DNA from: Candidatus Jettenia sp. AMX2
GTDB lineage: Bacteria > Planctomycetota > Brocadiia > Brocadiales > Brocadiaceae
Direction of reading: 5' to 3'
DNA length: 64,000 nucleotides
Assembly (NCBI GenBank): GCA_030583665.1
Contig: CP129469.1
Location: 2,161,043-2,225,042 of the forward strand
This document shows positions 12,919 through 32,982 of this stretch, one piece after another; position 1 is the stretch's first letter; each line of letters starts with the position of its first letter. Both the position numbers and the translations under genes were made by a program. The notes below the pieces were generated by a model. That model had not been told where the DNA came from and did not search any database. It worked only from the letters and a program-made list of their open reading frames with translations.

Positions 12919-12966
12919 TTTTTATTTTTTTAAATACCATACAATATCCGGTATAAGGGGGATTAA

Positions 12967-13941
12967 ATGCAGGATTGTAAAATTCCATTTACGTGCGAAC
13001 TTTGTGAAAAACAGTTATCTTGTCAGCTGGACCAGATAGAACATAATAAGTGGGTAATTGCTCAACGTATGAAAGAAATCACCCACAAAATTGTTATTAT
13101 GAGCAACAAGGGTGGTGTTGGGAAGAGTACCGTAACAACAAACCTTGGCGTGTCGTTGGCTAAAAAAGGCTATAACGTGGGTATTGCAGATGCGGACATC
13201 CATGGCCCGAATATTCCGATTATGCTGGGAGTTGAGGGGAAGAGGCTGAAAAGCAGTACTGGTGGTATATTGCCGCTGGAAGTATTGCCAAATTTAAAAG
13301 TAGCATCCCTCTCTTTTTTAATAGAAAATCCAGCAATGCCGGTCATTTGGAGGGATTCTGCAAAGTGGGATTTTCTTTGTGAATTGATGGGAAGCGTATG
13401 CTGGGGCAATCTGGATTACCTTTTGGTAGATTTACCGCCGGGAACCGGAAACGAAGCCATTTCAATTATAGAACTTATCGGGAAGGTGGATGGCTCCATA
13501 ATAGTAACTACTCCACAGGATGTTGTTCTGTTAGATGTGAAAAAAGCAGTGCTTTTTTCCAGGGACAGCAATGTGCCGATCATCGGAGTCGTGGAGAACA
13601 TGAGTAACATGATCTGCCCGCACTGCTCCAAACATATCGATGTGTTTAAAACCGGTGGTGGGGAAAAAGTTTGCGCAGAACTGGGAGTTCCTTTTCTCGG
13701 TAAAATACCATTAGACCCGGGAATTACGGAAAAATGCGATACCGGCGAGGCCTTTGTATCTGCATATCCGGATTCTGATGCTACAAAGGCATTTAACGAA
13801 ATAGTCGGGAAGTGTGATACCTTTGTGAAAACCTATAAAGAAGAGATGGATAAAATCACCGAGTTTAAAGATATCCCTTTTCTGGGGAAGGTACCGGTAG
13901 ATCCAAATTTTGCTGAAGATTTCAAGGGTTTCTCGTCCTGA
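12967..13941 (+). CDS. mrp: Mrp/ApbC/Nbp35-family iron-sulfur cluster carrier ATPase with N-terminal Cys motif
   Basis: The deviant Walker A motif SNKGGVGKSTVTTNLG (about residues 46-61), DADIHGPNIP, DLPPGTGNE and the cluster-binding CPHC (about residue 218) identify an Mrp/NBP35-type P-loop ATPase that carries [4Fe-4S] clusters. The first 19 residues hold Cys4, Cys10, Cys13 and Cys19 (CX5CX2CX5C), reminiscent of the N-terminal cluster site of eukaryotic Nbp35 (CX13CX2CX5C). Near the C-terminus the block PFLGKIPLDP (about 240) recurs as PFLGKVPVDP about 75 residues later. The usual bacterial N-terminal MIP18/DUF59 domain is absent. The start follows AAGGGGGATTAA. It sits next to a four-cluster ferredoxin. 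Confidence 0.92.
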   Translation: MQDCKIPFTCELCEKQLSCQLDQIEHNKWVIAQRMKEITHKIVIMSNKGGVGKSTVTTNLGVSLAKKGYNVGIADADIHGPNIPIMLGVEGKRLKSSTGGILPLEVLPNLKVASLSFLIENPAMPVIWRDSAKWDFLCELMGSVCWGNLDYLLVDLPPGTGNEAISIIELIGKVDGSIIVTTPQDVVLLDVKKAVLFSRDSNVPIIGVVENMSNMICPHCSKHIDVFKTGGGEKVCAELGVPFLGKIPLDPGITEKCDTGEAFVSAYPDSDATKAFNEIVGKCDTFVKTYKEEMDKITEFKDIPFLGKVPVDPNFAEDFKGFSS

Positions 13942-14094
13942 AACATACTGAATAATTTGCATTTTACTTGTCAGAAGAATTTCGATCACTTCCTTTTATC
14001 TTCCGGCGTGTCCTTCCAGGTTTGCATCAGGAAGAAATTACAAGCAACAAACAGATTCGAAAATTTAAGGTAACATACAATCATACGGTGCAAC

Positions 14095-17000: not shown

Positions 17001-17676
17001 AGCCGCCTCGATTGCCCACGAGATACGCAATCCGCTTGGTGCCATATCCAATTCTGTATGCATGCTGAAAAGAGATCTGGCCCTGAACGGCGACGATCAA
17101 AAATTATTTGATATGGTTGTCGAAGAAACCGACCGTCTCAATAGTATAATTACCAGCTTTCTTACCTTTGCACATCCTGCAGAGTATCATTTTATGAAAA
17201 GTAATATTATTGATATTATAGACGAAACGTTGTTCTTGTTGGAGCAGGATGCAAGGTTTCATGACGAAATTAAGATTATCAGATCTTATAACGGCACGAT
17301 CCCTAAAATTTATGCAGACAGAAATTGGATCAGAAAGGTTTTCTGGAATTTACTTATTAACTCGGTCGACGCTATGCCTGATGGCGGGAAAATCCTCATT
17401 CGTGTCAAGAGAATAAGGACGCCAGACCACGACGAAATCGAGATCATCGTCGCTGATCAAGGCAATGGAATCCCTCCTGAAAATATAAGAAAGATATTTG
17501 AACCCTTCTTCACGACAAAAAAATCAAAGGGGACAGGGTTGGGGCTTTCTATTGTCCATCGTATCGTAGATAATCATGGTGGCACAATAGACGTAAAGAG
17601 CGCCCAGGGTAAAGGAACGGTATTTACCATCCGGTTGCCGGTAAAAAATAAACAAGTAAAAACCCTTTCAGTATAG
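14095..17676 (+). CDS. Membrane sensor histidine kinase (dCache-like, HAMP, three PAS, GAF, HisKA, HATPase)
   Basis: The 1193 residues divide as follows: a first membrane helix at about 9-29, an extracytoplasmic sensor of about 280 residues (dCache-like), a second helix at about 314-338, HAMP to about 392, PAS at 400-520 and 543-663, GAF at 670-825, and a third PAS at 829-950. The kinase core has SIAHEIRNPLG with phosphoacceptor His975, then NLLINSVDAM, DQGNGI, FFTTK and GTGLGLSIV. The core resembles NtrB/ZraS-type kinases, and the NtrC-type regulator begins 13 bases after its stop, so the two form one phosphorelay. The extracytoplasmic signal cannot be told from sequence. Multiple PAS/GAF units suggest more than one input, possibly redox or a small ligand. 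Confidence 0.93.
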   Translation: MFRSIKNKLIFLLLIAVLTPLLVMRLIAYPTAQKAFQETTLNNLQLAGSKRVFQINDWLKKLKDDAGHIAHNTFVAAATSMINADKNTNAQYVARIPYTENFQGFIIGDLSGIIRISTDDSLIGQDLTEYEGFRRAIKGVVSVTEEPFLAMHISYDLVHPIMGSSVYIASPVRTTRGTISGVIMLKIDLSSLTHEYREIPYSDRYDTYIVNRQGIMVHHFNHEKQLIAAKNLKEQMEQKLIVVEPHTSKFTKSVDSSLKGINGSDIDGYINHEGEKVLGAWFWIPELEWGVITEISVNRVSLAMNDLKNPIAKILSYLTVSGVILALTGIVFAFFIGEKIANPIVGLITATRKMSAGDLSQRVVIKTHDELQELVDAFNVMAESVQEKTSKLQETTNFLNNILISSTEHSIIASDLQGTILAFNEGAKRMFGYEPEELINKSGIEIVYTKSDVASGKVQEILETTLLNGRYKHEVQLVRKNGEVFTGYSTFTTRQSSDEKPIGFVMIVRDITEQKQLEQILHNYTVQLEKILEERTQKLRISEEKYRRLFESSKDVVFFCDIECQFVDINQAAVDLFGYESKSEILKLNLIQHLFFSISEGKATRGIVYKNGFIKDYEVELKKKDGSKIFCLMTSNLRRDERNSVIGYEGIIIDQTERKRIEQEKDIMNNINKILASKLDFREVFKSLSAELNKVVDFDRMSIALLNEKREEFLTYAVSKDYGISRLEEGVQYSKHGTLAGKVVENGKVYMVNDTSRGPFLTDPILYHEGIKSRSAFPLLSKGEIIGSVNFGSRKAHNFSENQFDFINKITPQLAIAIDNTRLFDKIKESEEKYRNLVEDIEDVIFRLDKTGRYLFLNSALKNVTGYRPQEFYDNPSIVKEIINKNDMPLVKETMQKVLNGNLKVSKDLEYRIFCKNGEELWVSQNTYPIKDKKAKIIGLEGIIRDITDRKRIEEQIRRSERLASIGELAASIAHEIRNPLGAISNSVCMLKRDLALNGDDQKLFDMVVEETDRLNSIITSFLTFAHPAEYHFMKSNIIDIIDETLFLLEQDARFHDEIKIIRSYNGTIPKIYADRNWIRKVFWNLLINSVDAMPDGGKILIRVKRIRTPDHDEIEIIVADQGNGIPPENIRKIFEPFFTTKKSKGTGLGLSIVHRIVDNHGGTIDVKSAQGKGTVFTIRLPVKNKQVKTLSV

Positions 17677-17689
17677 GTTTACTCCAGCT

Positions 17690-19072
17690 ATGTTTACTAT
17701 TCTGGTTGTTGAAGATCAAAAAAACATGCGTGAATCCCTGGTTATCGCATTTAAGAGAGCCGGATATGCCGTTGATAGTGCTGACAATGGCGAAAATGCT
17801 ATAGAATTACAAAAGATACATTCCTATGATTTAGCCGTTGTTGATTTGAAGATGGAAACCATGGACGGGATTGAGGTTCTTATGCATATCAAGGATATTA
17901 ATCCTGCAACGAAAGTTGTTGTTATGACTGCATTTGGCACGATCGATAGCGCAATTCAGGCAATGAGAAAGGGAGCTTATGATTATATTACCAAACCTTT
18001 TCAACTTGCCGATATGCTTTCCGTAGTGAAACGGGCATTAGAGAGAAGCTTTTTATCTGGCAGACTTATTATTCCACGGGAGGAAACGAAAAAGGAATAT
18101 AAGTTTGATGGTATTATGGGCAGCTCACCCGCCATGAGATATATATTCAATATTCTTACGGAAATAACCAATAACGAAAGTACCGTTCTCATAACCGGAG
18201 AAAGCGGGACCGGAAAGGAACTCGTTGCACGTGCTATTCATAACAACAGCGGCAGGAACAACAAACCTTTTGTGGCAGTAAATTGTGGAGCATTACCTGA
18301 AAATCTGCAGGAAAGCGAAATGTTTGGCCATGCTATGGGTTCTTTTACCGGTGCCGTAAAAGATAAAAAAGGAATATTTTTAGAAGCACAGGGGGGTACA
18401 TTATTTTTAGATGAAATTGGTGAGACATCCCTTTCAACCCAGGTAAAACTCCTCCGGTTTCTGCAAAATGGTGAAATACGAAAAATCGGGGACAATAAAC
18501 CCGTTTACCTCAATGTTCGTGTTATCGTTGCGACAAATAAAGATCTTAACGAAGCAACAAAAAACGGTTCTTTTAGAAAAGACTTATTTTACCGGCTAAA
18601 TGTTATCAGAATCCACTTACCGTCGCTTCGTGAGAGAAAAGAAGATATTCCCGTTCTGGCAAATTATTTCATAAACAAATTTTCCGGCAGGTTAAAGAAA
18701 AGACCGCTGGAATTATCCGGAGATGTGCTGAACCTTCTCTTACATTATCCATGGCCTGGCAATATCAGAGAATTAGAAAATGTTATTGAAAGGTCCGTTA
18801 CCCTGGCAAAGGGTAATCTGATTACGGCAACTGATCTGGCATTGCAAAACAGTTCTGCAGAAGATACCGTGACTGGTATGATGGAGACGGGCGGAATTCG
18901 TGCTGCTTTGGCGCAACAGGAAAGAAAAACCATAATTGAATCCCTGCGAAAACACGCCGGGAACCGCAAACAGGCGGCAAATAATCTGGGAATCTCTACA
19001 ACTACCTTGTGGAGAAAAATGAGGGAATATCAAATTATTCCCAAAACAAGCTATAATATAGAAAATACCTGA
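17690..19072 (+). CDS. NtrC-family sigma-54-dependent response regulator
   Basis: The receiver domain spans about residues 1-115 with acidic pocket Glu8-Asp9 and phospho-acceptor Asp52 (VVDLKME). A sigma-54 AAA+ domain follows, with Walker A GESGTGKELVARAIH, the sigma-contact loop GSFTGA (GAFTGA with Ala to Ser), GTLFLDEIGE and an arginine-finger region FYRLNVIRIHLP. A Fis-type helix-turn-helix closes it (NRKQAANNLGISTTTLWRKM). It should be phosphorylated by the kinase at 14095 and activate RpoN promoters. Two -24/-12-like sites lie 5-9 kb downstream before amt1 and the dihaem gene, but nothing in the sequence proves they are its targets. moaA starts 15 bases after the stop. Confidence 0.96.
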   Translation: MFTILVVEDQKNMRESLVIAFKRAGYAVDSADNGENAIELQKIHSYDLAVVDLKMETMDGIEVLMHIKDINPATKVVVMTAFGTIDSAIQAMRKGAYDYITKPFQLADMLSVVKRALERSFLSGRLIIPREETKKEYKFDGIMGSSPAMRYIFNILTEITNNESTVLITGESGTGKELVARAIHNNSGRNNKPFVAVNCGALPENLQESEMFGHAMGSFTGAVKDKKGIFLEAQGGTLFLDEIGETSLSTQVKLLRFLQNGEIRKIGDNKPVYLNVRVIVATNKDLNEATKNGSFRKDLFYRLNVIRIHLPSLRERKEDIPVLANYFINKFSGRLKKRPLELSGDVLNLLLHYPWPGNIRELENVIERSVTLAKGNLITATDLALQNSSAEDTVTGMMETGGIRAALAQQERKTIIESLRKHAGNRKQAANNLGISTTTLWRKMREYQIIPKTSYNIENT

Positions 19073-20056
<984 letters not shown>

Positions 20057-20073
20057 CCTGGCGAGGTAAACAT

Positions 20074-20553
20074 ATGACACCATTAACTCATTTTGATGAA
20101 CAAGGCGCTTCCCGCATGGTAGATATCGGTAACAAGGGAATAACCGAAAGGATTGCTCTTGCACATGCAAAAATCACCATGAAACCGGAAACCTTCCAAT
20201 TGATCATGGATAAGAAAATTCAGAAGGGAGATGTACTTGAGATAGCCCGAATAGCAGGTATTATGGCTGCAAAACAAACCCCTGGTTTAATTCCGTTGTG
20301 TCATTCGCTTAATTTAACAAGCGTAAAAATTGATTATACAAACAACTCTCTGGATACGGTCAATATATTCTCAGAAGTTAAAGTAACAGGGGCAACCGGA
20401 GTGGAAATGGAAGCTATGACCGCAGCGACCCTCTGTGCAATCACGATATATGATATGTGCAAATCTGTTGACAAAAAAATGGTAATCAGCGATATTCACC
20501 TCGTTAAAAAATCAGGCGGCAAAAGCGGAACATTTGTTTTTTCAGAAACGTAG
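20074..20553 (+). CDS. moaC: Cyclic pyranopterin monophosphate synthase MoaC
   Basis: The 159 residues carry the MoaC signatures RMVDIGNK, AGIMAAKQTPGLIPLCHSL (active-site region), VKVTGATGVEMEAMTAAT and a C-terminal VKKSGGKSG that supplies catalytic Lys residues. MoaC converts the MoaA product, 3',8-cyclo-GTP, to cyclic pyranopterin monophosphate. The gene follows moaA by 17 bases, and CGAGGTAAAC serves as its ribosome site. It ends two bases before the convergent phosphoesterase gene ends, so transcripts from both sides may interfere. No moaE, moaD or moeA is in the window. Confidence 0.97.
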   Translation: MTPLTHFDEQGASRMVDIGNKGITERIALAHAKITMKPETFQLIMDKKIQKGDVLEIARIAGIMAAKQTPGLIPLCHSLNLTSVKIDYTNNSLDTVNIFSEVKVTGATGVEMEAMTAATLCAITIYDMCKSVDKKMVISDIHLVKKSGGKSGTFVFSET

Positions 20554-21493: not shown

Positions 21494-22303
21494 CTAAATT
21501 ATGCAATTGAGTTCTTTCTTAAGCTCCCCTGCCGAGGATAACCTCAGAGAAACATCCGGCTCTAAGAGCCCTATCATGATTTCTTCAAGTTCGGGAGGAA
21601 TACGCCTGTTTATTCGGCATGGCAAAACCTTCTCTACCTGCCATAATCTTTTCGTCAGTATCTGATATAAGATAAGGCCAAGAGAATAAAGATCAGTCCG
21701 GACATCCAAACGTACAGGGGCAGATATATCTTCGTAACTAATTTTTCCCGGAAGGTTCCTAAGATATACACGCATCTGCAATTGCTCCGGCGATGCATAT
21801 GCTTTACTGATTCCTTTCATAATTCCACCAATTTTAATAGCTAATTCAAAATCAATAATGTATACTAACCCTGTTTTTTTATTAAGAATTAAATGTCCGG
21901 GTTTCAAATCACAATGAATATAATTTTTACTGTGAATATAAGACAGGGGATCACAGGCTGTAATAAAATATTTAATAATTTCTTCAATAATCTTATTATT
22001 TGTTACATCTTTTTGCATGAAGTAATTAACAAGATCACAACCATCGATATGTTGTAATATAATAAAGTTCTGTCTGATTAAAAATTTTCCGTTCTTAAAT
22101 AATTCACCCTGTCCAAAGTCATAAGCAGCTGGAATTTGAATATGGTCGAATCCTTTCAACAAATAATATTCATCGGAGAATTCAAAATCCGGAGCATATT
22201 TTATCCCTCGCTCCGGCATGTCAATTAAAAGAGCATAGTTGGATCTGTGCAGGTTCTCTTTGGATTTAAAATTATTAAAATAATACTTGTGAATTCTATA
22301 CAT
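21494..22303 (-). CDS. Atypical Hanks-type Ser/Thr protein kinase
   Basis: The C-lobe pattern of a eukaryotic-like kinase is clear: IHCDLKPGHLIL (HRDLKPxN with Arg to Cys and Asn to His), IIDFELAIKIGG (DFG read as DFE), KAYASPEQL (APE-like), RTDLYSLGLILYQILT and a closing PDVSLRLSSAGEL. The catalytic Asp is kept. The N-lobe is short: no glycine-rich loop is evident, and the ATP-anchoring Lys is not clear. Loss of the Asn and of the DFG Gly suggests weak or altered catalysis. The length of 269 residues leaves no room for a sensor, and no membrane segment is seen. A phosphoesterase gene follows 15 bases downstream. Confidence 0.82.
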   Translation of the reverse strand: MYRIHKYYFNNFKSKENLHRSNYALLIDMPERGIKYAPDFEFSDEYYLLKGFDHIQIPAAYDFGQGELFKNGKFLIRQNFIILQHIDGCDLVNYFMQKDVTNNKIIEEIIKYFITACDPLSYIHSKNYIHCDLKPGHLILNKKTGLVYIIDFELAIKIGGIMKGISKAYASPEQLQMRVYLRNLPGKISYEDISAPVRLDVRTDLYSLGLILYQILTKRLWQVEKVLPCRINRRIPPELEEIMIGLLEPDVSLRLSSAGELKKELNCII

Positions 22304-22663
22304 AAAGACAGTTTCCTTATCAAAAATGGGATTTTGTGATTATAACCCAATATATCGATAAAACAAAGAATTTAAGTTTGAATACCGAATTTTGCAAAAA
22401 ACGCACATAATGGTGGAAATAAGCCTGTTGATATTTTTCCGTTAATTTATCTTTAAAATTTATAAATTTTATTTTACTGGCAACTTATAAAAAACAGAAC
22501 AATAAATATTGGAAAATTAGCAACAATGCCAATTTCAGAAAACAGCTTAGTACGATACAAAGTTAGATTTGCTTAAAATAAGTTGTATCTCCAGGCATGG
22601 CAGAAATTATCAATATAAAACAAGATTGATGTAATTTAAATAATATAATATTTTATAGACTAT
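22304..22663. other. A+T-rich divergent intergenic DNA
   Basis: This stretch separates the kinase gene from the ammonium region. It is strongly A+T-rich and no gene or RNA is recognised. It should hold the kinase promoter on the - strand and could hold activator sites for the sigma-54-like element that follows. Confidence 0.5.
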
Positions 22664-22678
22664 GGGAACGATAATTGC
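22664..22678 (+). promoter_or_regulatory. Candidate sigma-54 (-24/-12) promoter of amt1
   Basis: GGGAACG-N4-TTGC compares well with the RpoN consensus TGGCACG-N4-TTGC. The essential GG (22665-22666) and GC (22677-22678) have the exact spacing. The predicted start lies near 22690, about 175 bases before amt1. Two positions of the -24 box deviate. Confidence 0.5.
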
Positions 22679-22767
22679 TGCTTTTCGATAAGCTTAGTTT
22701 ATGTTTTTATTGGTGTGATTGTATAATTACTGAATAGTACTTCTAAAACTTTTTGCAAAGAAAGGAG

Positions 22768-22863
22768 GTGAAGGGGAAAAAGATACCTGGTTTATTTATA
22801 ATCATTTTAGTATTGTATTTAATCCGTATAAGAGGTAGTATTTTACGAGGAGAAGAGAAATAA
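22768..22863 (+). CDS. Possible 31-residue membrane leader peptide before amt1
   Basis: GTG at 22768 opens 31 codons that end in TAA one base before the amt1 ATG (TAATATG). The peptide would be MKGKKIPGLFIIILVLYLI plus a basic RIRGSILRGEEK tail, so one hydrophobic helix between positive ends. AAAGGAGG directly abuts the GTG, which is too close for a normal ribosome site and weakens the call. If translated, it would couple to amt1. Confidence 0.25.
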   Translation: MKGKKIPGLFIIILVLYLIRIRGSILRGEEK

Positions 22864-22864
22864 T

Positions 22865-24433
22865 ATGAAATGTGTTTCAGGTAAAATGAGGTTTAATATA
22901 TTATTATTGTTAATAACCTTGGGGATATTTACGGTAGAAACGGGAATTGTTCATGCTTCGGATCCTGTCGGTGACCGTACGTATTCAGATAGCATTGAAG
23001 GATTAAAATATGCTATAAATTTCACATGGACATTAACAGCTGCCTTTCTGGTATTCATTATGCAGGCTGGATTTACTTTTTTAGGCGGATTCCTGAGAGC
23101 AAAAAACATGCTCAGCTATATGTCCCATTGTTTTATTGATTCTACACTTGGGGCAATTGTTTTTTTCCTTTTTGGATTTGCCCTCATGTATGGCGGTTCC
23201 CAACTGGCTCCCGGACTTGAATACGGTAATGTCTTGATTGGCTGGGGTGGTTTCCTTCTTCATGGGAAAGCATATGACGTTCAAACAATCATGTTTTGGC
23301 TTTTTCAAATGATGTTTGTCACAAAAACGGTTTCAATTGTCGCCGGTGGTGTAGCAGAAAGGCTTAAGTTTACACCGTATATTATTTATAGCTTTCTGGT
23401 AGCAGGTATAATTTATCCGATTTTTGGAAATTGGGTATGGGGAGGTGGTTGGTTAAGCACCCTGCCATTCGGAGGTGGTGTAAAAGACTTTGCCGGCTGC
23501 GCTACTGTCCATACTGTAGGGGGCGTGCTGGCATTCGTCGGGGCATGGGCATTGGGGCCGAGAAATGGTAAATATAATCCCGATGGTACACCCAACGCTA
23601 TTCCAGGCCACAACCTTGTCTATGTAGTAATAGGAACCTTCATTCTTGCTTTCGGCTGGTTTGGTTTTAATGCCGGAAGCACCCTGGCAGCAACTGATTT
23701 ACGTATCTCTGTTATTGCAACCAATACCTTTATAGCTGCTGCAGCAGGTGCAGTTGTTATGATCCTTTTTACCAAACTTAATATGGGTGTTATTGATTTA
23801 GCTTTTATTTGCAACGGCGCGCTCGGTGGGCTGGTTGCTATTACAGCACCCTGCGCTTATGTATCACCATGGGCAGCCGCAGTGATTGGACTTCTCGGCG
23901 GACTGGTAATGAGGGGTGCATTCTGGCTGGTTGAGGCCAAATTCAGGGTTGATGACCCGCTCGGTGCAGTAGCTGTACATGCAGCCAATGGTATATGGGG
24001 TATGATTGCTGTGGGAATCTTTGCAGACGGTACTTACGGTGGTGTATATGGCTTAATTACCGGTTCTGGCTGGCAATTAATCTCACAAATCATAGGCACT
24101 ATAGTAGCTATTGCATGGGCATTCGCCTGGGGAGTTGCCATATTTTTTGGTTTAAAATATACGATAGGGATTAGAGTATCGGATGTTGTTGAACATGAAG
24201 GAGTTGATGTCCACATCCACGGATCTTCTTGTTATCCTCTGGAAACCAAATTTATTGATCCTCTTTTGGAGAAAGAAGAACCGGCAGAACTCTTAAAAGA
24301 GGAAGAACAGATATCTTTGCTTGAGGAAGCATTAAGCAAGGATGCCTTTAGGGAAAAAATCTATTCGGACAAACTTGGCCGGTGGGTATACGCAGTACGC
24401 AAACAAGAGGATACAAAAAGCAAGAAAAGGTAA
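22865..24433 (+). CDS. amt: Ammonium transporter 1 with long C-terminal extension
   Basis: A signal-peptide-like start (residues 1-32, ending VHA-SDP) precedes the 11 membrane segments of the Amt/MEP/Rh fold. The twin pore histidines are in ATVHTVGG and AVHAANGIWG. FGWFGFNAGSTLAATD and GALGGLVAITAPCAYV are Amt signatures. The cytoplasmic tail contains VDVHIHGSSCY and then extends by about 68 charged residues (about 455-522) rich in Glu, Lys and Leu, probably helical. The tail is where GlnK docks and gates Amt, and the extension is absent from the two other Amt proteins nearby. Ammonium or ammonia uptake or sensing is the expected role. GAGGAG precedes ATG at 22865. glnK1 follows 58 bases downstream. 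Confidence 0.96.
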   Translation: MKCVSGKMRFNILLLLITLGIFTVETGIVHASDPVGDRTYSDSIEGLKYAINFTWTLTAAFLVFIMQAGFTFLGGFLRAKNMLSYMSHCFIDSTLGAIVFFLFGFALMYGGSQLAPGLEYGNVLIGWGGFLLHGKAYDVQTIMFWLFQMMFVTKTVSIVAGGVAERLKFTPYIIYSFLVAGIIYPIFGNWVWGGGWLSTLPFGGGVKDFAGCATVHTVGGVLAFVGAWALGPRNGKYNPDGTPNAIPGHNLVYVVIGTFILAFGWFGFNAGSTLAATDLRISVIATNTFIAAAAGAVVMILFTKLNMGVIDLAFICNGALGGLVAITAPCAYVSPWAAAVIGLLGGLVMRGAFWLVEAKFRVDDPLGAVAVHAANGIWGMIAVGIFADGTYGGVYGLITGSGWQLISQIIGTIVAIAWAFAWGVAIFFGLKYTIGIRVSDVVEHEGVDVHIHGSSCYPLETKFIDPLLEKEEPAELLKEEEQISLLEEALSKDAFREKIYSDKLGRWVYAVRKQEDTKSKKR

Positions 24434-24491
24434 TACATAACTCAGTGTTTTAATATCATTAGATCGTATTCTACGGATGGAGGTTTTTTTC

Positions 24492-24830
24492 ATGAAAAAA
24501 ATCGAAGCAATAATCAGGCCTGAAAAATTTAATATCGTCAGGGATGCCTTAACAGAACTGGGTTATCCGGGAATGACTGTTACCGAAGTAAAGGGTCATG
24601 GAAGCCAGAAGGGTATCAGCGAAGTATGGCGTGGCAGAAGATATCGCATTGACCTGATCTCGAAGATCAAGATTGAAATTGTTGCAAATGAAGATGAGGT
24701 AGAAAGGATTGTAAATACCATCATAAACGAATCCCAGACCGGGAGTATCGGAGACGGGAAGATATTTATCTTTACGGTAGATAATGTTTATCGGATCCGC
24801 ACAAAAGAAACCGGAAAAACGGCAATTTAA
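24492..24830 (+). CDS. glnK: PII signal protein GlnK 1 (Tyr51 present)
   Basis: This 112-residue PII protein reads MKKIEAIIRPEKFNIVRDAL and has the T-loop KGHGSQKGISEVWRGRRY, where Tyr51 is the site that GlnD uridylylates. The B-loop TGSIGDGKIFIF binds ATP/ADP and 2-oxoglutarate. Residue 46 is Trp, where many enteric PII proteins have Tyr. ATG at 24492 is chosen because GGAGG stands 9 bases upstream; the frame is open from 24477. PII proteins block Amt channels when ammonium is plentiful, and this gene lies between amt1 and amt2, so it probably serves one of them. No glnD or glnA lies in the window. Confidence 0.96.
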   Translation: MKKIEAIIRPEKFNIVRDALTELGYPGMTVTEVKGHGSQKGISEVWRGRRYRIDLISKIKIEIVANEDEVERIVNTIINESQTGSIGDGKIFIFTVDNVYRIRTKETGKTAI

Positions 24831-24855
24831 AAGAATTATCTTTTAAGCTTTTTAT

Positions 24856-24890
24856 GCTGATGTTGTCTCCGTTTGCGGGACAACATCAGC
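24856..24890 (+). promoter_or_regulatory. Perfect 12-bp stem-loop just before amt2
   Basis: GCTGATGTTGTC (24856-24867) and GACAACATCAGC (24879-24890) are exact inverse complements with an 11-base loop. No T-run follows, so it is not a standard terminator. It ends 8 bases before the amt2 start and would cover the ribosome-binding region, so it may limit amt2 translation or protect the upstream mRNA end. Confidence 0.6.
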
Positions 24891-24898
24891 AATTTATT

Positions 24899-26275
24899 AT
24901 GAAAACAAAATTAATCCGATATTATTTTTGGTTCATTGTGTTTACCGGATTCTGTATCCTGTACGATAAAAATGTGTTTGCCGGTGACCCAAGTGGTATT
25001 GCTACCTACACGGACAGCATATCAGGTCTAAAATTCTCAGTAAACTTTGCATGGACGTTACTCTGTGCATTTTTAGTTTTTAATATGCAGGCAGGGTTTG
25101 CATTCCTCGGTGCAGGATTTCTTCAGAAAAAAAATACCTTGAATTTTATGGCGATGAGTTTTGCAGATTTTTGTGTGGGAGCACTTGTATTCTGGCTATT
25201 TGGCTTTGCATTAATGTTTGGTGGCTCAAATCTGGCACCTGGACTTTCCAGTGGAAATAAATTTATCGGCTATAGTGGATTTTTATTGGGAGGCAACGCC
25301 TATGATGTAACCACTTCAGCACTTTGGATGTTTCAAATGATGTTTGCCGCCTCTGCCTGCACCATTGTAGCAGGCACAGTTGCAGAAAGGGTTAGATTTC
25401 ATGTCCACATTGTTTACAGTATTTTCTTATGCGGCATACTTTATCCTCTTTTCGGACATTGGATGTGGGGCGAGGGATGGCTGGAATCACTGCCTTTTGG
25501 CGTTGGGGCAAGGGACTTTGCTGGTTCTGGCGTAGTTCACGGAATGGGTGGCTTAGTAGCATTTATTGCTGCATGGGTTGTTGGGCCCCGTTTTGGTAAA
25601 TACAATCCTGACGGGAGTCCTAATGTAATTCACGGCCATAATGTACTCTTTATTGTTGTGGGTACCCTTACCCTCATGTTTGGATGGTTTGGTTTTAATG
25701 CGGGCAGTACACTTGCAGTCACAGAACTCAGGGTAGCAGTTGTAGGGGTAAATACTTTTCTGTCTGCAACGGCGGGAGCTGTCACCCTCTTGTACTTTTC
25801 TTATTATAAAACCGGAAAGTCGGATGTTATCATGATGTGCAATGGGGCCTTGGCAGGATGTGTGGCAATCACGGCATCCGGTGCTTATGTACCCCATTGG
25901 GCAGCAATCATCATCGGGATACTTGCAAGTTTAATTACAAAAAGTTCACTCTATTTCATAGAAAGCAAGTTAAGAATTGACGACCCTGTTGGTGCCATAT
26001 CGGTGCATGGAGCAAATGGAATATGGGGATTGCTTTCGGTTGGAATTTTTTCTGACGGAACTTATGGTGGTGTAAAAGGTTTAATCGCAGGATCCGCATG
26101 GCAATTACTAGCCCAATTTATTGCCTGTATCACTCTCATATCCTGGTGTTTTTTTGCCGGGTATGCTTTTTTTTCTCTTCTCAGGTGTTTTGTTAAATTA
26201 AGGGTTCCCGTAAACGATGAACGCTCCGGCCTGGATATTTATGAACATGGTATAAATTGTTATCCGGGGTCATGA
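24899..26275 (+). CDS. amt: Ammonium transporter 2
   Basis: The 458-residue protein starts with a signal-like segment (MKTKLIRYYFWFIVFTGFC, ending near VFA-GDP) and shows the Amt fold with twin His in GVVHGMGGL and SVHGANGIWG, FGWFGFNAGSTLAVTELR and GALAGCVAITASGAYV. It resembles amt1 closely over the membrane part but has the short normal tail ending DIYEHGINCYPGS. The frame opens at 24854, but ATG 24899 gives the signal peptide. The start has no clear ribosome site and lies directly behind a strong stem-loop, so translation may be controlled. It is the last gene of the amt1-glnK1-amt2 set. Confidence 0.95.
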   Translation: MKTKLIRYYFWFIVFTGFCILYDKNVFAGDPSGIATYTDSISGLKFSVNFAWTLLCAFLVFNMQAGFAFLGAGFLQKKNTLNFMAMSFADFCVGALVFWLFGFALMFGGSNLAPGLSSGNKFIGYSGFLLGGNAYDVTTSALWMFQMMFAASACTIVAGTVAERVRFHVHIVYSIFLCGILYPLFGHWMWGEGWLESLPFGVGARDFAGSGVVHGMGGLVAFIAAWVVGPRFGKYNPDGSPNVIHGHNVLFIVVGTLTLMFGWFGFNAGSTLAVTELRVAVVGVNTFLSATAGAVTLLYFSYYKTGKSDVIMMCNGALAGCVAITASGAYVPHWAAIIIGILASLITKSSLYFIESKLRIDDPVGAISVHGANGIWGLLSVGIFSDGTYGGVKGLIAGSAWQLLAQFIACITLISWCFFAGYAFFSLLRCFVKLRVPVNDERSGLDIYEHGINCYPGS

Positions 26276-26718
26276 TAAAAATTTATGAAAAGTTATCGCT
26301 ACAGATCTAACAGTTGAACAAAAAATTTTAGTGAAAATTCATTAAAAAAAAGTACAATGCAAGCGTATTGTTGAAATAAGTTTAGGCACTCTCGCTTTAC
26401 GGCAAAAACTTTCCCGATATTACAAGGAATTACTGCCGTGTAACTTAATTAACCACTCAGGTTACGTTATATACTATGCTTAAATCAACAAAACCTTTAT
26501 TGACCAAATTTACTTATCCTCTTCCGCTTCCTTTCCTGAGTATATATTTTTTTACCTCACTTACTTTAGAAATACTAAATTGTTACATTTGCAATTACTT
26601 TGGTTTTAATCAACCAAGCTAGCAAATATCATGCATATATATGCCTGTATAATATAAATATATTATATACTTTCTTAATTCCGTTACTTACAATATTATA
26701 TTTTATACTATATTAATA
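26276..26718. other. A+T-rich intergenic DNA before the dihaem cytochrome gene
   Basis: About 440 bases hold no recognised gene. The last 130 bases consist almost wholly of A and T with several TATATA stretches, typical of a bendable upstream region for a sigma-54 promoter, which follows directly. Confidence 0.5.
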
Positions 26719-26733
26719 TGGCACGACAAATGC
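26719..26733 (+). promoter_or_regulatory. Candidate sigma-54 (-24/-12) promoter of the dihaem cytochrome - amt3 - glnK2 set
   Basis: TGGCACG-ACAA-ATGC matches the RpoN consensus TGGCACG-N4-TTGC at all positions but one, with exact GG/GC spacing (GG 26720-26721, GC 26732-26733). The start would fall near 26745, about 90 bases before the cytochrome gene. Confidence 0.65.
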
Positions 26734-26836
26734 GCAGATTTGGAACTTTGTGTTTCTACTGCTCTTCGTATATCAATCAATACTTACAGTTTTGGTTAGA
26801 ATCAAAATATTTATTGCAGGAAACAGGAACTATCCA

Positions 26837-27820
26837 ATGATTAAAAAAAATAAAATATATTTTTACTGTTCGATACTTTTTATTATAAATTGTTTATTGT
26901 CTTTTTCCGCATTTTCACAGAATTACATAATAAACGGTATCCCGGAACGGGACTACACGAAAACAGAAATCAGGGATAGCATCGTACGAAAAGAATCCTT
27001 GGTTCTTAAAGATAACCGAGTGTACATTCAAATACTGCTTGACAGAGGAGCGAAGAACATAACTGATCATACAAGATACAAAGAAATGTTTTATTCGCTT
27101 CCCGAACAAATTTTTTATGATGAGGCAACGAACCGCATTTTATATGATACAGGAACCGAAGAAATTGAAGTGGGAAAGGTCAAAAGTTTCTTAGGTCTTA
27201 TGCCCTCTATTGTTTTAAGTGAAGGCGTAATAATAGTAAGTTCTCCTAACGATGCCAAATTATTAATCTCATCCTTTAATAACAACGGCACATTTCCCTT
27301 ATCCATTATCCATTCAGAAGAAAGTATGGAAATAACTTTGAGTAGAAAATGCGGGCAATGCCATATACTCGATTACCTTTTTTCGCATAAAAAATGGACA
27401 GAAGAAGACATAATACATGTGTTTAACAGGTTACAAATGGAAAAAGGAGAGCAATTTACTGCAGATGAGCAGGCAATCATTGATCTCTTTAAACAGTATC
27501 AGAGGGGAGAAATAGACAAGGAGAAACTTTCCGAGTTCAAAACATTAAAAGAAATGGAAAAAAAAGATGTCAATACCTTTACAGAAGATATCTATACAAA
27601 TACCTGTGTGCCTTGCCATAACCCATCGGCAATTTCAGATATACCATCATTATATACCAAACGCAGATGCAAAAGCATAGCCGGCTGGATAAAAGAAAAA
27701 GAGCCATTACTCTTTCTGCAGAAAGACCTTGATAGCCTGGCTGGCTATTTATGGGAAATAAAACTGAGACCGCATAACCATTCAATCTGTTTCCGCGAGA
27801 AAGGAGGTGATATTCAGTAA
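26837..27820 (+). CDS. Periplasmic dihaem c-type cytochrome of unknown family, inside the ammonium region
   Basis: The 327-residue product has a signal peptide (MIKKNKIYFYCSILFIINCL, cleaved near FSA-FSQ) and two haem c motifs, CGQCH at residues 172-176 and CVPCH at 257-261. Residues 30-165 have mixed strand and helix character and match no family I recognise. A charged helical region of about 80 residues joins the two haem sites. It would sit outside the cytoplasmic membrane or in the anammoxosome lumen. It lies between amt2 and amt3, and a sigma-54-like promoter stands upstream, so it seems to be controlled with ammonium uptake. ATG at 26837 has AGGAAC upstream; the open frame from 26750 is not used. 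Its redox partner is unknown. Confidence 0.8.
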   Translation: MIKKNKIYFYCSILFIINCLLSFSAFSQNYIINGIPERDYTKTEIRDSIVRKESLVLKDNRVYIQILLDRGAKNITDHTRYKEMFYSLPEQIFYDEATNRILYDTGTEEIEVGKVKSFLGLMPSIVLSEGVIIVSSPNDAKLLISSFNNNGTFPLSIIHSEESMEITLSRKCGQCHILDYLFSHKKWTEEDIIHVFNRLQMEKGEQFTADEQAIIDLFKQYQRGEIDKEKLSEFKTLKEMEKKDVNTFTEDIYTNTCVPCHNPSAISDIPSLYTKRRCKSIAGWIKEKEPLLFLQKDLDSLAGYLWEIKLRPHNHSICFREKGGDIQ

Positions 27821-27940
27821 GACGAGGGAGGTTTTTTTCTGAAGTACATGTGTCACCGGTTGAAACAGTTCGTAAATAAGTAGTGGTATGTGTAGTTTAA
27901 GATGGGAAGGTTGTTAACTATTACTTGAAAGGAGATAGCT

Positions 27941-29260
27941 ATGAGAAGAGGAGTCCTCGTGGGCGTTTCATCGATCTTTGTATTATCGATGTTTGCGCTA
28001 TTTGTTTCTACTGCTATGGCAGGTGATGTACCGGAAATTGATACAGGGGATAATGCGTGGATGCTTATGTCTGCAGCATTGGTACTTTTTATGACACCCG
28101 GACTTGCCCTGTTTTATGGAGGTATGGTAAGGTCAAAAAATATGGTAAACACCATATGGATGAGCTTCATTTGTATGTGCATAGCAACCATGACGTGGGT
28201 ACTTTGGGGGTATAGCCTGGCATTCGCTCCGGGCAACTGGTTTATTGGGGGTCTCCAGTGGTGCGGATTAGGTCTGGGGGCCGTTGGACAAACGCCACTC
28301 GAAGGGTCAACAATTCCGCATTTAACATTTATGGTATTTCAGGGCATGTTTGTTATTATTACCACTGCAATTATGAGTGGTGCTTTCGTAGAGCGCTTTA
28401 AATTTAATGCATGGATGTTACTGATACTTTTGTGGACAACCATAGTTTACCCGCCAATAGCATATTGGGTATGGGCAGATGGCTGGCTGGGAGCCATCGG
28501 AAAATTGGATTTTGCAGGTGGTACTGTAGTTCACATATGTTCTGGCGCCTCAGCCCTGGCAATCCTTCTTGTTGTGGGGAAGCGAAAAGAAGTCAGACCT
28601 CCACATAATTTACCACTCATGATGCTGGGAACCGGTATGCTATGGTTTGGATGGTTCGGTTTCAACGCAGGGAGTGCAGGAGCAGCGGATGGTCTTGCTG
28701 CAAGCGCATTTGTTGTTACGAATATCTCCGCAGCTGCAGGTGGACTTGCATGGTCTATTTTAGAGTGGATATACCATAAGAAACCTACCATACTTGGCGC
28801 TTGTTCAGGTGTAGTTGCAGGTTTGGTCGGTATTACACCATGCGCAGGATATGTAGGACCCATGGCATCAATTTTTGTAGGCGTTATTGCTGGAATAATA
28901 TGTTTCTATTGCGTAACAAAACTGAAACCAATCATTGGTTACGATGATGCATTGGATGTATTAGGTATACATGCGTATGGTGGAACCTGGGGAGGATTGG
29001 CAGTCGGTATCTTTGCAAGCACATCGGTAAATCCTGGTGGCGCTGATGGTGCAATTTATGGAAATTTCACCCAATTGGGAATACAAGCAATTGGCGTTCT
29101 GGTTGGATGGGCATGGGCATTTGGAATTACCTTGCCGCTGGCTCTCTTTGTTAATTGGGTGATCGGCTTACGGCCCAGTGAAGCTGATGAAACTATCGGT
29201 ATGGACCAAACCCAGCATAAAGAAATTAGTTATCATATTTTTGAGGCAGAACAGACTTAA
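27941..29260 (+). CDS. amt: Ammonium transporter 3 (classical AmtB type)
   Basis: A signal peptide (ending AMA-GDV) precedes a textbook AmtB body: GDNAWMLMSAALVLFMTPGLALF, given here only by its position 34-56, then MVRSKNM, the twin His in VVHICSGASAL and GIHAYGGTWGG, WFGWFGFNAGSAG, and the tail GLRPSEADETIGMD. At 439 residues it is shorter than amt1 and closer to enteric AmtB than amt1 and amt2 are. It should conduct ammonium and be gated by GlnK. GAAAGGAGATAGCT directly before ATG 27941 is a strong ribosome site. The glnK2 gene follows 93 bases downstream. Confidence 0.97.
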   Translation: MRRGVLVGVSSIFVLSMFALFVSTAMAGDVPEIDTGDNAWMLMSAALVLFMTPGLALFYGGMVRSKNMVNTIWMSFICMCIATMTWVLWGYSLAFAPGNWFIGGLQWCGLGLGAVGQTPLEGSTIPHLTFMVFQGMFVIITTAIMSGAFVERFKFNAWMLLILLWTTIVYPPIAYWVWADGWLGAIGKLDFAGGTVVHICSGASALAILLVVGKRKEVRPPHNLPLMMLGTGMLWFGWFGFNAGSAGAADGLAASAFVVTNISAAAGGLAWSILEWIYHKKPTILGACSGVVAGLVGITPCAGYVGPMASIFVGVIAGIICFYCVTKLKPIIGYDDALDVLGIHAYGGTWGGLAVGIFASTSVNPGGADGAIYGNFTQLGIQAIGVLVGWAWAFGITLPLALFVNWVIGLRPSEADETIGMDQTQHKEISYHIFEAEQT

Positions 29261-29320
29261 TTATTTACCGTAAAAAACATACATTCTAAGGGAAGAATCT
29301 TAATCATTGATTTTCATTAA

Positions 29321-29692
<372 letters not shown>

Positions 29693-29750
29693 TTAATGTA
29701 ACAATCAGCAATTTTTGTAGTTATATACAAAAGTTCCGCAATGTAGTAAA

Positions 29751-29790
29751 AGGGCGTTGGATTTATATAAATCCAATGCCCTCATTTTTT
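29751..29790 (+). terminator. Rho-independent terminator closing the amt3-glnK2 unit
   Basis: A 15-bp stem (29751-29765 with 29768-29782, one G-T pair) is followed by CA and six T. It lies 58 bases after glnK2. Only two bases separate the arms, so the top pairs must open to form the loop. Confidence 0.85.
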
Positions 29791-29807
29791 ATATCTTATA
29801 AAATATT

Positions 29808-30623
29808 ATGATTAAAAAAAGCATAGACTCTGTTCCGTTACTATTTTTTAAGAATCTGTCAAAAAACAGGGAAATTAAACATTTTGTATCAACAAGGATT
29901 GGCGGATTTAGTAATCAGCCATATCATTCTCTCAATCTGGGATTTCATACCGGAGATAATCCTGCGGCAGTACTCAAAAATCGTAAGCAGCTTGCCCTTA
30001 TGCTTGGAGTTCCATTACACAATTTTGTTACCGCTAAACAAGTTCACGGTTCCCAAATAAGAATCATCACAAGAGGCTCCCGGGGGCAAGGGGCATTTGA
30101 TTATGACACGGCAACACCCCTTACTGATGCAATGGTAACAGACGTTACAAACATCGTCCTGATGGTATTGCAGGCTGATTGTGTCCCCGTTCTGCTGTTT
30201 GATGCAAGGAGGAAGGTCATTGGTATTATCCATGCGGGATGGAAAGGCACAGTCAAAAAAATATCAAAGGATACGATACTTGTCTTAAAGGAAAAATTTG
30301 GCTGTCTTCCGGCTGATATCCTTGCTGGAATCGGACCGTCAATCGGTCCGTGTTGCTATGAGATTGGCCCGGAAATCATTGCTGAAATCAGTAATGTGTT
30401 TTACCTTAAAAGTAAATGCCGCAACCAAAACACTGCATCCGGCAAAAATTTTTTCGATTTATGGAAGGCAAATAAAATGCAGCTTATGGAAGCGGGGGTG
30501 CCGGAAGAAAATATAGAAACTGCCGGAATCTGTACCTATTGTAATCATCATCTTTTTTTCTCTCATCGCAATTGCACTACAGGAACAGGTAGATTCGGAG
30601 CCGGCATAATGCTTAGAGATTAA
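29808..30623 (+). CDS. YfiH / LACC1-family purine nucleoside phosphorylase-like protein
   Basis: The 271-residue protein has the multicopper-polyphenol-oxidase-like fold of YfiH/YlmD: STRIGGFSNQPYHSLNLGFHTGD (residues 28-50), KQVHGSQI, the zinc site His-Cys in LQADCVPVLLFD and IHAGWKGT, and CTYC near the C-terminus. Family members act on adenosine, inosine and methylthioadenosine. The older laccase name is not supported by these motifs. It stands alone behind the amt terminator and convergent to the GltB-like gene. No ribosome site is clear before ATG 29808. Confidence 0.9.
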   Translation: MIKKSIDSVPLLFFKNLSKNREIKHFVSTRIGGFSNQPYHSLNLGFHTGDNPAAVLKNRKQLALMLGVPLHNFVTAKQVHGSQIRIITRGSRGQGAFDYDTATPLTDAMVTDVTNIVLMVLQADCVPVLLFDARRKVIGIIHAGWKGTVKKISKDTILVLKEKFGCLPADILAGIGPSIGPCCYEIGPEIIAEISNVFYLKSKCRNQNTASGKNFFDLWKANKMQLMEAGVPEENIETAGICTYCNHHLFFSHRNCTTGTGRFGAGIMLRD

Positions 30624-30672: not shown

Positions 30673-32397
30673 TTATTTCCTTCCCTTACCCTTCCCTTTC
30701 GGTTTTGGAATTGGTTTTGTAGGTTTTGGTTTTGATATGGTTTTTTGCTTTGCTGCAATTTTTGATTTTGCAGCTGCAGCTACTTTCTGTTTTGCCGCTG
30801 TTTTGGTAATGTTTTTTTCTTTCCCCGCAAGAATTAGTTCTGCCTGTTCAGCATCAGCATCCATAATGTACCTTAAACCAGTTATGTCAGCTGCTTCCCG
30901 GGTAAGGCTTACAACATCATCTCTTGTAAGATAGCGCAATGCAAACTTTCTTGAACCGCACATTAATTGCCTTAGACCCTGAGACAGACGCTGATAATAC
31001 GAATAAACACCTATCGCTCCGGGAGGTACTTTCCTGCCATTATCATTGAATAGCCTCTCTACTTTGGACGACAATACAAAGATCTCATCCATTGTTTTCC
31101 CATACATCTCTATCGTCCTGTCGATATTCTTTGTCTCAATCTGTTCACCAAGCAGTTTTCCGACATGTGCAGCACAAATTGCCGGACGTGCCATTCCTAC
31201 GGCCTTCACATAGGGCGCACCCAGTGCAATAGCCTTGAAAATATCGTCTTCAAATGCAAACCCGCCGGCAAGGATAATATCCGGAACATGTTTTCCTTTC
31301 GATGCTAATTTGTGCACATACTTATAGGTAAGGGCAGATATATATAAGGTTGGGATTCCCCATTCATTCATCATATGCCAGGGACTCATACCGGTCCCCC
31401 CGCCGGCGCCATCAACCGTTAATACGTCTACTCCTGCAAGCGAACAATAATAAACCGCCCTTGCAAGATCCGCCGGCCTGTAAGCACCTGTTTTCAGGAA
31501 GATATGTTTGGCGCCCATTTTCCGTAATTCTTCAACCCTTTTAACAAACCCCTGTTCCGTGACCATTCCAACCCTGGAATGCCGTTCAAATTCCTTGAAC
31601 GACTTTCCAAAAACGGATGTAACATTATCCTCATAAGGATCAGGTAATACAATATACCCCCGGTCTCTCAGCATTCTTGCCTTTTCCAGGCTATCAATCT
31701 TTACCTCTCCACCGATATCCTTGGCACCCTGACCCCATTTCATTTCAACGGCGTCAACACCTAATTTGTTTATACCGTATTCAATTACTCCCAACCGGTT
31801 ATCTTCTACATTTTCCTGCAATATTATTGTTCCATAACCATCCTGTTGCCAATCTTTAAAGGCTCTTACCCGGTATTCCAGATCAGGACAGTGAACAACT
31901 TTTCCTTTCTCAAATTTCGAATTGGGGTCCATACCTGCAACATTTTCACCAATAGTTAAACCTGTTCCTGAAATCGCAGAACCAATGGCTAATCCATCCC
32001 AGTGCGTCTTTGCAATCCTTGTTGAACCCAGCCCCGGAACTACAACAGGAAACCTTAATTTAACACCCCTATTCTTCCCCAGGAATGCTTCCGTATTGAC
32101 ATTTTCAAAAATTGCCTTGTCACTATCAGCCTCAATTCCAACAGCCCCGACAGCTGTCCCCATGATATTCAAATGTGAGAAATCTGCAGGGTATTCCTTG
32201 TCTGCACCTGCAGTAAGGGTCCCGAATGGCTGCGGATACAAGTTTTCGGATGCCCTAAAGGCAGACCTTCCAATCTCACACAGACCAGGACACTCATCCA
32301 CGCAAATCGAACACATGCCACTGGCAGGTGTCCTGTCGTTGGGTGTTCTATTTCTTGAACGCGTCGCTACAGATGCATTCGGTTTTGAAAATGACAT
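30673..32397 (-). CDS. GltB-like FMN-binding glutamate synthase family protein with Lys/Ala/Pro-rich tail
   Basis: The body matches the central FMN-barrel of glutamate synthase in its archaeal, stand-alone form: MKWGQGAKDIGGEV, KTGAYRPADLA, VDGAGGGTGMSPWHM and ILAGGFAFEDDIFKAIALGA (FMN phosphate site). An N-terminal CSICVDECPGLC (about residues 28-39) may bind an iron-sulfur cluster. No glutaminase (GATase) domain is present. The last about 50 residues are almost only Lys, Ala, Pro, Gly and Ile (AAAAKSKIAAKQK, KPKGKGKGRK), like a histone H1 tail. Glutamate synthesis would fit the ammonium region next door, but other substrates are known for this family. ATG 32397 has AAGGGG upstream. Confidence 0.82.
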   Translation of the reverse strand: MSFSKPNASVATRSRNRTPNDRTPASGMCSICVDECPGLCEIGRSAFRASENLYPQPFGTLTAGADKEYPADFSHLNIMGTAVGAVGIEADSDKAIFENVNTEAFLGKNRGVKLRFPVVVPGLGSTRIAKTHWDGLAIGSAISGTGLTIGENVAGMDPNSKFEKGKVVHCPDLEYRVRAFKDWQQDGYGTIILQENVEDNRLGVIEYGINKLGVDAVEMKWGQGAKDIGGEVKIDSLEKARMLRDRGYIVLPDPYEDNVTSVFGKSFKEFERHSRVGMVTEQGFVKRVEELRKMGAKHIFLKTGAYRPADLARAVYYCSLAGVDVLTVDGAGGGTGMSPWHMMNEWGIPTLYISALTYKYVHKLASKGKHVPDIILAGGFAFEDDIFKAIALGAPYVKAVGMARPAICAAHVGKLLGEQIETKNIDRTIEMYGKTMDEIFVLSSKVERLFNDNGRKVPPGAIGVYSYYQRLSQGLRQLMCGSRKFALRYLTRDDVVSLTREAADITGLRYIMDADAEQAELILAGKEKNITKTAAKQKVAAAAKSKIAAKQKTISKPKPTKPIPKPKGKGKGRK

Positions 32398-32690
32398 TTA
32401 CAAACCCCTTTCTAATAAATTTACAAGCTATGTTATTTATGATTAATGCTTACTGGTGTATTAATTTTTTTCATTGAACAATGCGTTGTTTCAGCCACTC
32501 ATATGGCTCATAAAAGCACTGTTTTCATGCTATCACACGGTAAATAAGCAACCCGGTAACACCGATAAGAGACGCTGAATCGCCCTGCAGGCAGACAAAA
32601 CTTAAAGGACTGTCATGCTAAAAAACATATGAGCATTTAAAATTTAGCATATGGTATACCAACAAAAAAATATACACACAAATAATACGG

Positions 32691-32704: not shown

Positions 32705-32982
32705 ATAATTATATATATTTATTTAAAATCTGTGATTGTCGTTACAACACTCTTTGGTGTGCTGGCTGACTAAAACCAAAATACTTACCTGTCAGGTTAA
32801 TTTCTGCATCCTTTTGGTATCATGACGTAAAGAGAAACGAACCGTTAAGGTTTTCCCTTCCCGTTTTTTTAAAGTTTTCTGCAAGCATACCTTATATACC
32901 TATTTTCAAATTCACTGTCAATAAAATTTTAGTAATGGCCTTGTTTGTCAGATTCTTCTGTCAACAAAACACAATTTATTTG

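Follow-up and report, generated by a model that had tools for sequence, protein, structure and literature searches.

In the nitrogen regulation (Ntr) regulon of proteobacteria, NtrB/NtrC act together with sigma-54 at glnK-amtB and glnA, and the NtrC site has the sequence TGCACC-N5-GGTGCA. Here, we present an analysis of a 64,000-nucleotide stretch of the genome of Candidatus Jettenia sp. AMX2 (the window), which is part of one 3.46 Mb contig and harbors two units of ammonium genes, amt1-glnK1-amt2 and dihaem-amt3-glnK2. As in the proteobacterial regulon, predicted sigma-54 promoters and distant dyads are located before amt and glnK genes, and activators of the REC-AAA-Fis type are encoded. In contrast, the dyad differs from the NtrC site, the same dyad occurs at the genes for hydrazine synthase, and neither of the two activators tested passes the NtrC model. 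The beta and gamma subunits of hydrazine synthase are encoded in the genome (5.9e-200 and 9.7e-200 to PDB 5c2v, both exceeding their own NCBIfam cut-offs), and the organism is therefore an anaerobic ammonium-oxidizing (anammox) bacterium.

The hydrazine synthase (hzs) locus resembles the Kuenenia cluster kuste2854-2861, in which an activator gene and a small unknown protein are followed by hzs genes. In detail, kuste2857 is described as a sigma-54 response regulator, kuste2858 as unknown, and kuste2859-2861 as hzsCBA (PMC12053348, PMC6423088). Neither a promoter nor a binding site nor a connection with ammonium transporters is named in the passages on this cluster in the two papers. In K. stuttgartiensis, amt_1, amt_2, amt_3, and their PII genes nrp1 and nrp2 rise under ammonium compared with nitrite limitation, and so does every copy of hzsB and hzsC, together with one hzsA copy, although reads cannot separate the three hzs copies (PMC7438415). 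The circuit proposed here is similar to this joint rise of amt_1-3, nrp1, nrp2, hzsB, and hzsC, which fits a joint activation under scarce ammonium. The text of that paper contains no occurrence of sigma or NtrC.

In titles and abstract openings of openly licensed PMC literature, no proposed promoter or regulator for hydrazine synthase was present among the matches listed. The terms anammox, Kuenenia, and amtB are likewise absent from a 2025 survey of sigma-54 regulons covering Planctomycetia (PMC12316311). An enhancer dyad and a sigma-54 promoter shared between amt-glnK and hydrazine synthase represent a concrete and testable circuit for the key anammox enzyme. As judged from comparative sequence analysis, it is likely that one sigma-54 regulon links ammonium import to hydrazine synthesis, which probably means that ammonium import and the key enzyme are switched on together.

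Predicted sigma-54 promoters of the ammonium units

The original prediction placed one RpoN-type promoter in front of each ammonium unit, and both sites were recovered. TGGCACG-ACAA-ATGC (26719-26733) shares 10 of 11 bases with the consensus and lies upstream of dihaem-amt3-glnK2, GGGAACG-ATAA-TTGC (22664-22678) shares 9 of 11 and lies upstream of amt1-glnK1-amt2, and both are intergenic with the exact GG-N10-GC spacing. The prediction depended on an rpoN gene; the genome contains one complete copy (482 amino acids) with activator-interaction, core-binding, and DNA-binding domains (PF00309, PF04963, PF04552) and a TIGR02395 match over the cut-off. The sigma-54 activator domain has 16 strong and 4 weak matches in the genome.

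The proteobacterial consensus TGGCACG-N4-TTGC, searched with up to two mismatches, occurs 13 times in the window compared with 12.4 expected from shuffled sequences, and a genome-wide scan gave 680 matches compared with 601 for the reversed pattern. These matches are at chance level, so the motif by itself proves nothing, and counting it in the genome or the window was dropped as evidence.

Conservation was studied in a family set of 33 genomes, with larger regions around the dihaem gene taken from 27 relatives. The order amt1-glnK1-amt2-dihaem is found in 22 of these 27; the other loci (L045, L048, L057, L058, L059) lack amt1-glnK1-amt2 directly upstream. Before amt1, 19 of 19 relatives show a site similar to GGAATAATAATTGC, with GG-N10-GC in 18 and a GT end in one (L050). 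When 17 sequences were aligned (the window and 16 others, after removal of 3 of 20 with over 85% similarity), conservation averaged 0.99 in the six GG/TTGC columns compared with 0.68 across the 147 surrounding columns. Among 310 blocks of 15 bp, the site takes rank 13 and is surpassed by the leader block 22809-22831; this block and AAATAAGTTGTATCT near 22576 are the ones conserved equally or more strongly upstream of amt1. Before the dihaem gene, GG-N10-GC is present in 23 of 27 relatives and GG-N10-GT in three (L034-L036), and one (L057) has no dyad-anchored site, the anchored search admitting only sites 100-116 bp from the dyad described below.

Because of this conservation and the presence of rpoN, sigma-54 promoters at both ammonium units are strongly supported. 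The 22664 and 26719 sites can be predicted as such with high confidence, and both units are very likely under the control of sigma-54. No Rfam family explains the leaders, since a search over 22000-30000 found nothing. Reads of K. stuttgartiensis overlap from amt_1 to amt_3 (PMC7438415); by analogy, this would fit transcripts that start at the amt1 promoter and read through into the dihaem unit.

A dyad shared with hydrazine synthase

Upstream of the dihaem site lies a dyad of the type TGGTTTAAATCAACCA, which in the window reads TGGTTTTAATCAACCA and is the sole copy in the 3.46 Mb genome with at most one mismatch to TGGTTTWAATCAACCA. At least one copy of this type occurs in 24 of the 33 genomes, not all of them before the dihaem gene. 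Dyad and GG are 102-114 bp apart in 26 of 27 relatives, the window having 103 bp. In two g7 loci (L058, L059), dyad and site are located hundreds of bases further from the dihaem gene with the spacing still at 109-110 bp. The pair is also present, at 110 bp, in a third g7 genome (L077), where a search for the dihaem protein gave no match.

The same dyad is found at the hydrazine synthase locus of this genome (L097). Here, a scan of activator loci detected a perfect dyad 97 bp before TGGTATAGATTATGCT and an earlier copy with one mismatch, in the order sigma-54 activator, dyads and sigma-54 site, small protein, and hydrazine synthase. The comparison was extended to 25 loci of the small protein, the hzs leader gene (26 were returned and L151, a partial second match, was left out). 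GG-N10-GC is present in all 25, taken as the best site in a fixed 80-bp interval, and the dyad occurs with 0, up to 1, and up to 2 mismatches in 5, 19, and 25 of them, compared with shuffled means of 0.01, 0.19, and 1.43. The spacing between dyad and sigma-54 site is 94-109 bp. Another gene for the gamma subunit of hydrazine synthase, which also exceeds the NCBIfam cut-off, is located at L096:2576-3598 near two activator genes.

At amt1, a wider look revealed TGGCTGAAATAAGCCA-like dyads in the relatives, most of them 228-244 bp upstream of GG. In the interval chosen, 8, 16, and 18 of 19 sequences (L047, at a contig end, was left out) carry a dyad with 0, up to 1, and up to 2 mismatches; the shuffled means are 0.007, 0.1, and 1.2, and five control intervals gave 0-1, 0-1, and 0-2 of 19. 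A perfect dyad together with TGGAATAGATATTGCT precedes amt1 on a public contig (L282), possibly from the same relative as one already counted.

The combined pattern dyad-N80-110-GG-N10-GC has six matches in the genome, five of them before genes, compared with one for the reversed pattern. The six comprise hydrazine synthase, an Mnh operon, the dihaem unit, a glutamate-synthase-like gene, a small-cytochrome cluster, and one intragenic position. The window contains two matches compared with 0.02 expected, one of the two being the source site of the pattern. The dyad of the ammonium units thus recurs at hydrazine synthase, where another activator gene adjoins it. This points to control in common with the catabolic pathway, and we infer that this control would be catabolic rather than classical Ntr.

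Proposed circuit and candidate activator

In the proposed circuit, RNA polymerase with sigma-54 would use both sites as -24/-12 promoters. An activator of the NtrC family would bind the dyad TGGYT-N6-ARCCA, located some 85-115 bp ahead of the promoter (some 235 bp in the case of amt1), contact the waiting polymerase through DNA looping, and raise ammonium transporters, PII proteins, and hydrazine synthase jointly, most likely in response to a shortage of ammonium. The best candidate for the activator would be the kuste2857-like protein whose gene immediately precedes the hydrazine synthase operon (G000:C1:1137176-1138564, L097:5177-6565). The sites with their conservation, the shared dyads, rpoN, and the activator genes are seen in the sequences, and activator binding, activator identity, looping, and signal are the parts that we infer. 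The evidence leans slightly towards this hzs-linked protein as the dyad-binding regulator. The proposal as a whole, comprising sigma-54 promoters, a regulon shared with hzs, a dyad-bound hzs-linked activator, and a joint rise, seems on these sequence data to have somewhat better than an even chance of being correct.

The hzs-linked activator consists of a receiver domain (REC, PF00072), an AAA+ domain (PF00158), and a Fis-type helix-turn-helix domain (PF02954). It adjoins the dyads in its own genome, and in relatives it adjoins hzs with dyads. Among 20 relatives fetched, 18 have full-length copies with 74-85% identity and two have truncated ones (L192, L196). All 19 full copies share an identical C-terminal segment, GLTRGTFRYRL, while the loop reads GAFTSA in 11 (own genome included), GAFTGA in 5, and GAFTNA in 3. 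In the receiver domain, the usual lysine before proline is replaced by T or A in 20 of 20 copies covering the position (DYLTTP here). A search of the activators against loci of relatives fetched earlier gave no match at E<=1e-30.

Two of the 16 activators, the hzs-linked one and that at 17690, were compared with the NtrC model of NCBIfam, and with 418 and 423 bits, respectively, both are below its cut-off of 558.6. For both, response regulators of the AtoC/ZraR type are among the best NCBIfam matches. They differ from this type in that neither reaches the cut-off of any of the 25 families listed for it, and in that the hzs-linked one is without the receiver lysine.

Weighing of the evidence

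Several observations weigh against the proposed circuit. The dyad test at the dihaem gene is partly circular, as sites were anchored on a loose dyad. At amt1, the dyad spacing of the other promoters yields only 1, 1, and 2 of 20 sequences with 0, up to 1, and up to 2 mismatches, the more distant interval was set after matches had been seen, and the window's own dyad TGGTGGAAATAAGCCT is weak with 2 mismatches and would not stand alone. Neither dyad nor sigma-54 site precedes the amt1-like gene on a Scalindua contig (L209). One of the six matches to the combined pattern lies inside a coding gene, and the glutamate-synthase-like gene has no dyad within 2 mismatches at 75-260 bp in either of the two g6 relatives with an ortholog. 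Regarding the activator, 9 of 33 genomes show no hzs-linked protein at E<=1e-150, and several of the nine keep the dihaem dyad. These nine genomes are fragmented, eight of them are also without an adjacent hzs leader gene, and G002 has a fragment of the activator. Orthologs of the 17690 activator are as widespread (32 of 33 family genomes, the window's own counted, with 73-81% identity). Finally, exposure to hydrazine lowered kuste2857 together with the hzs genes, which fits co-control and is no test of causality (PMC12053348).

Among the alternatives, the dyad might be the site of another of the 16 strong activators in the genome, or of a CRP/FNR-type protein acting alongside sigma-54, which we regard as possible though rather improbable. 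TGGTT-N6-AACCA has the 5-N6-5 geometry of CRP sites, but its sequence differs from the CRP and FNR consensus, and the narrow spacing to the sigma-54 sites, both at the dihaem gene and at hzs, is typical of enhancer sites. A CRP homolog has been reported in Brocadia, while that paper contains no occurrence of hydrazine or amt (PMC8510549).

It is unlikely that the dyad is bound, and the ammonium units controlled, by the 17690 activator together with its neighboring kinase (14095; dCache-HAMP-PAS-GAF architecture), as originally suggested. The activator gene with its GSFTGA loop is indeed present at 17690-19072, 3.6 and 7.6 kb from the two sites, and besides its wide distribution, it adjoins the amt cluster in the g2, g6, g8, and g11 genomes fetched and is some 14 kb off in one g9 genome. 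However, it belongs to a ferredoxin-Mrp-kinase-regulator-moaA-moaC cluster (12331-20553), kept in five other genera examined (g2, g6, g8, g9, g11; the g9 stretch ends inside the kinase), and its constant neighbors are the mrp, moaA, and moaC genes. In 8 g3 genomes examined, this cluster is not beside amt, the ortholog being, for instance, 29 kb off in G006 and about 500 kb in G004, and no dyad with up to one mismatch was found near the activator's own gene. The genome G022 (99% complete, 60 contigs) lacks the 17690 ortholog as well as the dihaem gene, a joint absence that would suit a link between them, yet its hzs locus retains the activator gene, the sigma-54 site, and the dyad TGGTGGATAACAACCA 125 bp before the site. 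On this one genome of 60 contigs, the comparison appears to favor the hzs-linked protein over 17690. Thus, of the suggested nitrogen control by RpoN as in proteobacteria, the sigma-54 promoters hold, given their conservation and the rpoN gene. The classical Ntr route through 17690 is not supported and probably does not apply: the 17690 regulator falls short of the NtrC cut-off, is not beside amt in the g3 genomes, and the dyad is also found at hydrazine synthase.

That both sites are chance matches and ordinary sigma-70 promoters start the units is very unlikely. In favor of this reading, the window has no more consensus matches than expected by chance, and a conserved sigma-70-like TTGTAA-N17-TAGTAT just before amt1 exceeds the sigma-54 block in conservation. 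Against it, this element may be a second promoter, the GG/TTGC columns are conserved with a narrow spacing to the dyads, and the same pair is found at hzs.

Further candidate members and sequence features

Returning to the regulon around the hzs-linked activator, the Mnh operon (L153, G000:C1:1457079) has a dyad and a sigma-54 site before the genes for Na+/H+ antiporter subunits E, F, and G (Pfam). With a family matrix built from 69 sites of relatives, the site of the glutamate-synthase-like gene scores highest in the window, while 22664 takes rank four and 26719 rank seven. An ortholog of this gene is found in 2 of 13 fetched regions, both g6, and both keep a TTGGTATGTATTATGC site. NaxLS was considered as the cytochrome target and not retained, the second gene of the small-cytochrome cluster matching PDB 6r6m ('Small soluble cyt c'). 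For the first gene of this cluster, nothing matches at E 0.001, and a limit of 10 adds only weak matches to unrelated entries. The notion that the hzs-linked activator is a dedicated master switch of anammox catabolism, acting via sigma-54 on hydrazine synthase, ammonium importers and PII, the glutamate-synthase-like enzyme, small cytochromes, and the Mnh-type cation antiporter, is tentative and on present evidence doubtful. Since its receiver domain is without the conserved lysine, such a switch may act without ordinary phosphorylation.

Table 1. Positions of predicted regulatory elements and genes in the window.
Feature	Position	Strand	Remarks
Sigma-54 activator, GSFTGA loop, originally suggested candidate	17690..19072	+	rival, not the favored activator
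Putative activator dyad of amt1, TGGTGGAAATAAGCCT	22411..22426	+	2 mismatches to TGGYT-N6-ARCCA; 238 bp before GG
Conserved AAATAAGTTGTATCT, between amt1 dyad and promoter	22576..22590	+	conservation in relatives
Sigma-54 promoter of amt1-glnK1-amt2 (predicted)	22664..22678	+	GG 22665-22666, GC 22677-22678
amt1, ammonium transporter	22865..24433	+	
glnK1, PII protein	24492..24830	+	
amt2, ammonium transporter	24896..26275	+	start codon uncertain; open reading frame opens at 24854
Putative activator dyad of dihaem unit, TGGTTTTAATCAACCA	26601..26616	+	103 bp before GG
Second conserved element GCA-N7-TGC, after dihaem dyad	26622..26634	+	conservation judged by eye
Sigma-54 promoter of dihaem-amt3-glnK2 (predicted)	26719..26733	+	GG 26720-26721, GC 26732-26733
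Dihaem c-type protein	26837..27820	+	CGQCH, CVPCH; without a match in Pfam or NCBIfam; 29 of 33 family genomes have a match
amt3, ammonium transporter	27941..29260	+	
glnK2, PII protein	29354..29692	+	
Glutamate-synthase-like FMN (flavin mononucleotide) protein	30673..32397	-	PF01645, E 4e-17; under site 32647..32661
Third sigma-54 site, TGGTATACCATATGC (predicted)	32647..32661	-	top family-matrix match in window
Dyad before glutamate-synthase-like gene, TGGTTTTAGTCAGCCA	32763..32778	-	same dyad type

The amt1 leader contains additional conserved elements. The sigma-70-like element is located at 22813-22841, just before the start codon; it is highly conserved as TTGTAA-N17-TAGTAT in relatives, has TTGTAT here, and is maybe a second, tandem promoter. 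A small open reading frame that stops 1 base short of amt1 in the window's leader was rejected as a candidate, as the leaders of relatives, judged by eye, are without a matching frame. The motif AAATAAGTYRTATCT was rejected as a regulon motif: it has matches in 33 of 33 genomes, but most counts are like the control, and it is too weak. An element AAATAAGT-TA occurs, as judged by eye, between dyad and -24 site at amt1 (22576-22590) and in the dihaem-gene promoters of many relatives. Also conserved in this leader is AAGGAGGTG at 22761-22770, which lies about 100 bases ahead of the amt1 start codon and is not closely followed by any start codon, and AAAGGAGGTG is also found before amt3 (27800-27809).

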